Of a stretch of 64,000 nt of DNA, positions 10,550 through 12,408 are shown piece by piece. The stretch is from Planctomycetota bacterium (GTDB taxonomy: Bacteria > Planctomycetota > Phycisphaerae > Sedimentisphaerales > Anaerohalosphaeraceae). The notes beneath the pieces are model-generated. The model saw only the letters and a program-made list of their open reading frames with translations. It made no database searches and was not told the DNA's origin. Every line of letters starts with the position of its first letter. Position 1 is the first letter of the stretch. Position numbers and translations under genes: made by a program. Location: assembly GCA_019456225.1 (NCBI GenBank), contig VRUI01000014.1, forward strand, positions 1 through 64,000, given 5' to 3'.

Positions 10550-11022
10550 TCAAGAAAAGGACCTCGGCCAAAGGCCAAATCTACCCCTAAAGACTTAAGA
10601 CTATAAACTAACGACTCTCAAACCGGCCGCAAGAGCGGTTTGACACGAACCACTCCTTATTCGGCAATACAAGGAGGCGGGTTAATCATTTACGCATAAA
10701 AATTGAAGAATTTAAATATGAGCAAATATCCGCAAATTACCTCGCAAAAACTTAAAGGTTGTAGAAAAGCCCGAATTAATAGTAAAAAAAAATCTGAAGA
10801 CTGCTCGTTTAATCAAAAAAAAAATCCAGAAACATTCCTCTTTAGCACGGCTATCAAGCCTATGGCTATATGAACTATAGGGTTTAGCTAGCCTCATTTC
10901 GGTCTCTGTGGTGCATGACCGACGTATACAGGAAAAACCTTTATATTAGTATTGAAAACGCAGATTCCAGAGGTAGCATGTTAGGTTTTTGTAATTTTTT
11001 TTTATTTTTTTAAAAAAAAATG
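10550..11022. other. Gene-free leader of the carrier-protein operon with hairpins
   Basis: A 470-bp gap between a minus-strand operon and the plus-strand RNA promoter. Visible structures: a GGCC-aaa-GGCC palindrome at 10565-10577 (a member of the dispersed TCGGCC family); CAAACCG..CGGTTTG at about 10619-10642; CTATA..TATAG at about 10873-10887; and TCGGTC..GACCGA at about 10899-10922. Transcribed on the minus strand, the last three would lie in a long 5' leader of the operon. They do not match any riboswitch consensus I know. A 61-codon frame at 10712-10897 looks like AT-rich noise. Confidence 0.4.
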
Positions 11023-11050
11023 TTGCAACCCCTTGTAGTTGGGTTATAAT
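11023..11050 (+). promoter_or_regulatory. Sigma-70 type promoter of the CTC-loop RNA
   Basis: The -35 hexamer TTGCAA (11023-11028), a 16-bp spacer and a perfect -10 TATAAT (11045-11050) predict a start at about 11056-11058. An A/T-rich stretch just upstream (10995-11020) could act as an UP element. This is one of the best sigma-70 promoters in the window. Confidence 0.75.
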
Positions 11051-11055
11051 ACTAA

Positions 11056-11160
11056 AGGTGGAATCGACGTTGATCTACTAGTAGTGCCGCTCGTGGCTTT
11101 TGTGGTTTTCTCCTCCTCCTCCTCCTCCTACCACGAGAGTTCGAGCGGTCTTTTTTTTTC
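11056..11160 (+). ncRNA. Candidate small RNA with CUC-repeat loop and intrinsic terminator
   Basis: About 105 nt from the predicted start to a nine-T tract at 11151-11159. The 5' arm GCCGCTCG (11086-11093) pairs with CGAGCGGT (11142-11149), directly before the T tract, giving a terminator. Inside, GTGG (11102-11105) can pair with CCAC (11131-11134). The apical loop is a run of CTC/TCC repeats (11109-11128), complementary to GGAGG ribosome-binding sites. The 5' arm can instead pair as CTCGTGG with CCACGAG (11090-11096 with 11131-11137). GCGGTCTTTT (11145-11154) can pair with AAAAGACCGC (11165-11174), so alternative folds exist. It could be a free regulatory RNA or a terminating leader of the oxidoreductase gene at 11308. 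No open frame is present. Confidence 0.6.
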
Positions 11161-11307
11161 TCCCAAAAGACCGCTTTAGGAAATCATACGCGCAAACCTT
11201 ACATTTTCATTATTCATCCCAATAATAATCATTGCCAATATTACCCCGGGCTTTACAATAATCAACAATAAGTAATCAATAATAAATCGAAAAGGGTTTT
11301 TTGCTAA

Positions 11308-12408
11308 ATGAAACAGGTTAAACTCGCCGTAATCGGTCTGGGGTATATCGGCCGCTGTCATCTCGAAAAAATTGCAATGGTCGGTAACATCGAAATTGTC
11401 GCCGTATGTTCTCGTCGTAAGCAGCACGCCCAGGAGATTGCCGCAAAATATAACTGCCGGGCGTTTACCGATTACCGCAAGCTTCTTGCCAGCAAAGTAA
11501 GCGATGCCGTGCTTATCGCAACTCCGCACTACTCGCACACAGCAATAGGCATTGACGCGTTGAAAGCCGGCTGCCATGTCCTTGTCGAAAAACCCATTTC
11601 CGTGCATAAAGCCGACTGCCAGAAACTCATCGCCGCCCATACAAACCAAAACCAGGTCTTCGCTGCAATGTTCAACCAGCGCACCCTCGGCGCCTACAAG
11701 AAGATCAAATCAATGATAGACGGCGGCGAACTCGGCAAGCTCATGCGAGTCAACTGGATCATAACCGACTGGTTCCGCACGGATGCGTATTATTCATCGG
11801 GTTCATGGAGAGCCACCTGGGTAGGAGAGGGCGGCGGCGTACTGTTAAACCAGTGTCCGCACCAGCTTGACTTATTGCAATGGCTTTGCGGTATGCCTTC
11901 AAAGGTCGCAGGATTCTGCGGACTCGGAAAACACCACGACATAGAAGTCGAAGACGAAGTAACCGCCTATCTCGAATTTCCCAATGGAGCAACCGGTGTA
12001 TTCATCGCTTCGACAGGCGAGGCGCCCGGAACAAACCGTCTGGAGATATGCGGCGAAAAGGGCAAAGTTGTTCTCGAAGGCGAAAACCTCCGCTTCTCTA
12101 GAAACGAAATACCCTGCAGCCAATTCCAGAAAACCTCGAAAGAACCAATGGCAAAACCCAGGGTATCTGAAATAGATATAGATATTGAAGTAACTTCCCA
12201 CGAGGACCAGCGAGCAGAGATCATAAAAAACTTCGCAAACGCAATCTTAAATGGCGAAAAACTAATAGCCCCAGCCGCCGAAGGAATAAACTCCGTAGAA
12301 TTGGCAAACGCGATACTATACTCCTCACTAACCCAAAAACCGGTACAACTCCCACTAAACGCCCAAACCTACGAAGCAAAACTCCAGGAACTTATAAACA
12401 ACCCGTAG
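11308..12408 (+). CDS. Gfo/Idh/MocA family NAD(P)-dependent oxidoreductase
   Basis: A 366-residue enzyme. The N-terminal Rossmann fold starts VKLAVIGLGYIGRCHLEK (GxGxxG-type, residues about 5-20). The family EKP motif sits at 94-96 (VLVEKPISVHKADC). The C-terminal domain carries GGGVLLNQCPHQLDLLQWL with the usual catalytic His/Asp. Members oxidise or epimerise sugars and inositols; the substrate cannot be assigned. The ATG is preceded by AAAAGGG. It stands between a candidate RNA leader on the left and a convergent gene on the right, with only 10 bp between the two stop codons. Confidence 0.92.
   Translation: MKQVKLAVIGLGYIGRCHLEKIAMVGNIEIVAVCSRRKQHAQEIAAKYNCRAFTDYRKLLASKVSDAVLIATPHYSHTAIGIDALKAGCHVLVEKPISVHKADCQKLIAAHTNQNQVFAAMFNQRTLGAYKKIKSMIDGGELGKLMRVNWIITDWFRTDAYYSSGSWRATWVGEGGGVLLNQCPHQLDLLQWLCGMPSKVAGFCGLGKHHDIEVEDEVTAYLEFPNGATGVFIASTGEAPGTNRLEICGEKGKVVLEGENLRFSRNEIPCSQFQKTSKEPMAKPRVSEIDIDIEVTSHEDQRAEIIKNFANAILNGEKLIAPAAEGINSVELANAILYSSLTQKPVQLPLNAQTYEAKLQELINNP

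Follow-up and report, generated by a model that had tools for sequence, protein, structure and literature searches.

A putative small RNA gene with an anti-Shine-Dalgarno terminator loop and RNAs of similar design in Sedimentisphaerales

Organization of the locus

The window, by which we mean the whole 64-kb stretch of DNA that was analysed, contains a 757-bp gap bounded on its upstream side by a 90-aa ORF and then an asparagine-synthase gene, both on the minus strand, and on its downstream side by a Gfo/Idh/MocA oxidoreductase gene starting at 11308 on the plus strand. Within this gap, on the plus strand, lie the elements named in a preliminary description of the sequence, i.e., a promoter, a predicted transcript of about 105 nt, a terminator stem, a loop with CUC repeats and a T9 tract, all of which are present where they had been reported. 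The sigma-70-like promoter (11023-11050) can be read directly as the −35 box TTGCAA (11023-11028), a 16-nt spacer and the −10 box TATAAT (11045-11050), with 10 of 12 positions matching the consensus. Taken alone, it does not exceed chance: 4 kb of sequence contain 9 promoter-like sites, where 5.8 ± 2.6 are expected. An A/T-rich tract that adjoins the −35 box on its upstream side (10990-11019) may serve as an UP element, and a similar tract also precedes the promoter of one of the copies in another genus (G002 C287).

The transcript would begin at approximately 11057, judging from the −10 box, with a 5′ leader predicted to form a small hairpin (11057-11079). The terminator stem follows, with a 5′ arm of GCCGCTCG-T-GGCTTTTGTGGT (11086-11106) and a 3′ arm of ACCACGAGAGTTCGAGCGGT (11130-11149). 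Its outer arms, GCCGCTCG (11086-11093) and CGAGCGGT (11142-11149), are read directly, and the predicted stem of 20 bp with one bulge is longer than previously stated. The arms enclose a 23-nt, all-pyrimidine CUC-repeat loop, TTTCTCCTCCTCCTCCTCCTCCT (11107-11129), which is unpaired with a probability of >0.999 in the predicted fold and which we propose as the anti-Shine-Dalgarno seed; the T9 tract of the intrinsic terminator occupies 11151-11159. The 104-nt transcript (11057-11160) has a predicted folding energy of −35.2 kcal/mol, compared with −23.3 ± 3.1 kcal/mol for shuffled sequences (z −3.8, 0/200). In a home-made scan, the 64-kb window yielded 39 terminator-like hairpins whose loops measure 10-40 nt, and in this one alone the loop consists wholly of pyrimidines.

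An 11-bp perfect inverted repeat, AGCGGTCTTTT (11144-11154) and AAAAGACCGCT (11165-11175), spans the T tract and would contribute about −14 kcal/mol alone. In this terminator (repeat at 11144-11175) and in those of three other loci (L043, L058, and L002), the T tract is often succeeded by TGCGCA or runs of A, with which it makes up an inverted repeat.

RNAs of similar design in the genome and across the order

A DNA search of the same genome identified a diverged paralog (C113:28895-28965, minus strand). It has a promoter (TTGACT-17-TACTAT) at the same place as in the window gene, a 5′ arm CCGCTCG.GGCTTTTGTGG, a pyrimidine loop UUUAUCUUCUCC that lacks the CUC repeat, a 3′ arm closing the stem, and a T9 tract. 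Three further copies (C287, C106, and C339) are present in another genus of the family (G002), also with promoters at the same place (TTTACA/TTGACT-16/17-TATACT/TATAAT), and the C339 copy was recovered at an E value of 9e-14 though it had been left out of the model. The 5′ arm of the window stem is kept in the paralog and in all three G002 copies. These five copies in two genera constitute what we refer to as class A; no further copies of C339-like strength were found in a search of all 39 genomes of the family. In other orders, the class A model gave weak matches at noise level (E 0.003-0.05), and weak matches within the order were accepted only where the sequence itself had the design. In the copies G002 C106 and C339 (L091, L151), the leader and the lower stem are interrupted by a dispersed GGCTTCGCTGAAAGC...GGCGGGACA repeat.

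Class A copies adjoin unrelated genes: the paralog lies next to a BadF-type ATPase and a small lipoprotein-like ORF, the C106 copy next to an ABC ATPase and the C339 copy next to a large ORF, none of them related to the neighbors of the window gene. Position before the same downstream gene, as expected of an attenuator or riboswitch, is therefore not kept, and trans action is argued on the basis of these unrelated contexts. Within the apical 12-bp helix, pairing is retained in 59 of 60 cells of the five copies, every variable column being a transition that retains a G-C, A-U or G-U pair. Covariation is nevertheless not demonstrable in class A, because the 3′ arms can be swapped between copies with hardly any loss of pairing to the G/U-rich 5′ arm (11.75 of 12 pairs form) and shuffled controls equal the observed values.

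The general design is shared across the order: a promoter is followed by a short leader and by a terminator hairpin whose pyrimidine loop, 15-30 nt in length, contains CCUCC. In class B, found in many genomes of the window's family, the stem reads CCGCCYG...CRGGCGG and UCCUCCUUCUGC lies between the helices; this class retains CCUCC and has pairs altered on both sides. In class C, UCCUCCUCCUCCU stands immediately before the terminator, as exemplified by two tandem RNAs on contig C27 of the same genome (L149, at 3750 and 3949) with a UCCUCC run just before near-identical terminators (CCGGAUUCGA/UCGAAUCCGG). The further CUC-rich candidates in this genome are one on C94 and one on C64 with the loop UUUUCUCCUCCUCCUU. 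Class D consists of tandem arrays in another family. Tandem arrays of family f2 (L049-L056, L156, L157) comprise 3-5 units of about 140 nt outside long ORFs, each unit carrying UUUUCUCCUCCUCCC beside a CAGUGAUA-containing hairpin in a cuckoo-like manner (see below), and none of them exceeded the threshold in Rfam.

Class E is the largest class. Of its 15 distinct sequences, all but one share the 27-nt loop UUAUCUCGCUUUCUCCUCUCCCUCCGC, and its 12-bp stem occurs as three unrelated sequences (ACAGGGYUGGGN, AGCCCCUGUGGN or GCCCCCGCGGGU). In these 15 sequences, nine of the 12 stem pairs are altered on both sides and 96.4% of the cells are paired, with a covariation of 0.67 vs. 0.21 in shuffled controls (0/500) and no more than 0.28 when slid. 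An alignment of 76 distinct sequences, which was fitted to the model, gave 95.4% paired cells and a covariation of 0.82 vs. 0.20, and CCTCC is present in 72 of the 76 loops. The preliminary description had taken a variable loop combined with randomly varying stems as evidence against its reading. Class E presents the reverse, with the loop fixed and the stems changing with compensation; in class A, the length of the (CUC)n run does vary, and covariation cannot be demonstrated.

At a cut-off of E up to 0.01, the class E model matched 85 of the 161 genomes searched in the order, almost all of them members of one family; E values go down to 3e-24, and a single genome holds up to 13 copies. Phylum-wide, the model yielded weak matches in three of 392 sampled genomes, approximately the number expected by chance, and none of the three shows the design. 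When 84,980 species genomes were scanned for the exact pattern, at least 119 stretches were returned; among the 80 matches listed, 78 have titles naming Planctomycetota, Phycisphaerae, Phycisphaerales or Sedimentisphaerales, and the other two are a Pacearchaeota bin and a Zixiibacteriota bin, both of which carry the normal RNA and are probably cases of binning contamination. The class E model, built without the window sequence, has its sole match in the 64-kb window at 11082-11159 (E 0.007 over 219 kb). Judged from these alignments and searches, class E (loci L088, L215-L242, L243-L322) is strong enough for a new covariance-model family, which could be built directly given its strong covariation, near-invariant loop, multiple copies, and confinement to the order. 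Class A may function like class E and may share its origin or targets.

Upstream of the class E copies, GAAC-N17-GTATA, which resembles an ECF sigma promoter, occurs in 20 of 81 cases compared with 5 in shuffled sequences, and some of the remaining copies are preceded by TTGAC...TATAAT. A stress regulon is possible.

Proposed function and alternative explanations

The 3′ end of the 16S rRNA in this genome is the canonical GGATCACCTCCTTT, and a minority of genes use Shine-Dalgarno (SD) sites: 12 of 41 window genes have one, compared with 1 of 41 in a mid-gene control, and genome-wide there are 484 GGAGG-N4-9-ATG sites vs. 312 for the reversed pattern. The computed duplex between the window loop and SD sequences amounts to −10 to −12 kcal/mol. 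Matches to the extended target AGGAGGAG in the same genome lie mostly within coding sequence and no specific target was found among them; among 30 loci checked, AGGAGGAG occurs near a start codon at one kind of gene start only, in two copies. Hfq (PF17209) was detected in none of 59 genomes of the order, including this one, although positive controls worked; therefore, the RNA must act alone or with another chaperone.

We consider it probable that 11057-11160 (plus strand) is a free-standing small RNA gene whose terminator loop pairs with ribosome sites elsewhere and represses translation without Hfq. The gene would run from a promoter of its own through a short leader to an intrinsic terminator, the latter also serving as the effector domain. 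The terminator stem would keep the 23-nt pyrimidine loop permanently single-stranded, so that it could bind GGAGG or GGAGA ribosome-binding sites on mRNAs encoded elsewhere and compete with the 16S rRNA tail, resulting in repression of translation. For the window RNA, transcription, mRNA pairing, repression, and the identity of its targets are inferred.

The strongest of the alternatives, which we regard as improbable, takes the hairpin for an ordinary strong terminator that ends a short or unknown transcript, holds a CTC microsatellite in its loop by chance, and has no trans function. The chance-level promoter of the window gene would fit this explanation, as would class A, in which loop length and repeat number vary between copies and the paralog has no repeat; a (CTC)n run can lengthen by slippage, which could account for the exact CUC pattern. 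It is difficult to reconcile, however, with the paralog and the other-genus copies, which have unrelated surroundings yet retain the promoter, the leader, the stem, and a pyrimidine loop, or with a class E loop that is non-repetitive and invariant while the stems change. In addition, no same-strand gene ends shortly upstream, the upstream flanking genes being on the minus strand.

Slightly less plausible still is the view that the pyrimidine loop, as part of an sRNA or decoy, binds a protein, such as Rho at a primary site or a cold-shock protein, instead of mRNA ribosome sites. Rho prefers YC-rich single strands, and the loops of all classes are long, unstructured, and nearly pure pyrimidine; the multiple copies are as expected of a titrating decoy, and the invariance of the class E loop over 27 nt exceeds what SD pairing needs. 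Yet CCUCC is kept both in class B and in nearly all class E loops, and a Rho site would need no such base order.

A cis-acting attenuator or leader of the oxidoreductase gene at 11308, operating through a terminator/antiterminator switch, is very unlikely: although the RNA lies on the same strand, with 148 bp from the end of the T9 tract to the start codon, and the sequence holds two alternative pairings, the first of these, the CTCGTGG/CCACGAG stem (−9.1 vs. −29.2 kcal/mol for the main fold), would cost about 20 kcal/mol and is absent from the paralog, the second (AGCGGTCTTTT/AAAAGACCGCT) appears only when read-through extends the transcript to 11300, and then costs the terminator stem no more than its last three pairs, the leader of the oxidoreductase gene lacks an SD site and shows poor pairing to the loop (−4.4 kcal/mol), and the other copies adjoin different genes. 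Thus, of the earlier interpretation, the trans-acting sRNA with an anti-Shine-Dalgarno terminator loop is well backed by the copies beside unrelated genes and by the order-wide design, while the fold switch and the attenuator are rejected.

Extending the reading as a trans-acting anti-Shine-Dalgarno RNA beyond the window, we tentatively suggest, with somewhat more doubt than confidence, that Sedimentisphaerales may run a lineage-specific, Hfq-free translation control through many minimal terminator-hairpin RNAs displaying the ribosome's own anti-Shine-Dalgarno sequence, a principle that classes A, B, C, and E and the tandem arrays of class D would share and that class E would carry to its highest copy number. 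If true, anti-Shine-Dalgarno loop RNAs evolved independently in Hfq-less bacteria, where the pairing domain is the terminator itself, and the question of how a generic anti-SD loop acquires target specificity becomes testable.

Relationship to known anti-Shine-Dalgarno RNAs

The preliminary description knew of no matching Rfam family, in agreement with our searches: there was no match in the window at gathering thresholds, nor in 20 related loci at relaxed thresholds (E up to 1), and no described sRNA family of Sedimentisphaerales was found in Rfam or the literature searched. By its predicted fold and gene structure, the window RNA would be of the functional kind of anti-SD C-rich-loop sRNAs, with an accessible, CU-rich, SD-complementary loop in a free-standing gene that has its own terminator. 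By the features tested, it belongs to none of the alpha-r14/cuckoo, LhrC, and 6C families, which are among the nearest to it in mechanism.

The alpha-r14, NfeR1 or cuckoo RNAs of alphaproteobacteria (e.g., SmelA075 and SmelA099) have three or four hairpins that all bear CCUCCUCCC, and they keep this loop while their stems vary (PMC3927594, PMC10746234). The same conservation of an anti-SD pyrimidine loop on diverging stems is found in class E, though not in class A itself. Unlike the cuckoo RNAs, the window RNA has one pyrimidine-loop hairpin (the terminator) and a leader hairpin, and its loop is longer and without the exact CCUCCUCCC; it has no Rfam match, although Rfam may hold no cuckoo model.

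LhrC of Listeria is a multicopy RNA with CU-rich sites, including the terminator loop, that pairs with SD sequences and does not need Hfq, with three UCCC sites and two stem loops (PMC4132741). The window RNA is likewise multicopy with a CU-rich terminator loop, but this loop has UCC/CUC repeats and no UCCC, the sequence and phylum are unrelated, and no Rfam match was obtained. By definition, 6C RNA has two stem loops that contain runs of at least six C. In mycobacteria, the C-rich open loops of 6C RNA/B11 pair with ribosome-binding sites independently of a chaperone (PMC10470900). The window RNA differs from these actinobacterial RNAs and their two C-run loops in its fold, has no run of six C in its transcript, and has no Rfam match.

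The staphylococcal C-rich sRNAs (RNAIII, RsaE, SprD) use an unpaired UCCC motif to block SD sequences (cited in PMC4132741). They share with the window RNA a C-rich unpaired motif facing SD sequences, and differ in that theirs is a short UCCC within larger RNAs, whereas the window RNA is minimal, with a continuous pyrimidine loop of 23 nt.
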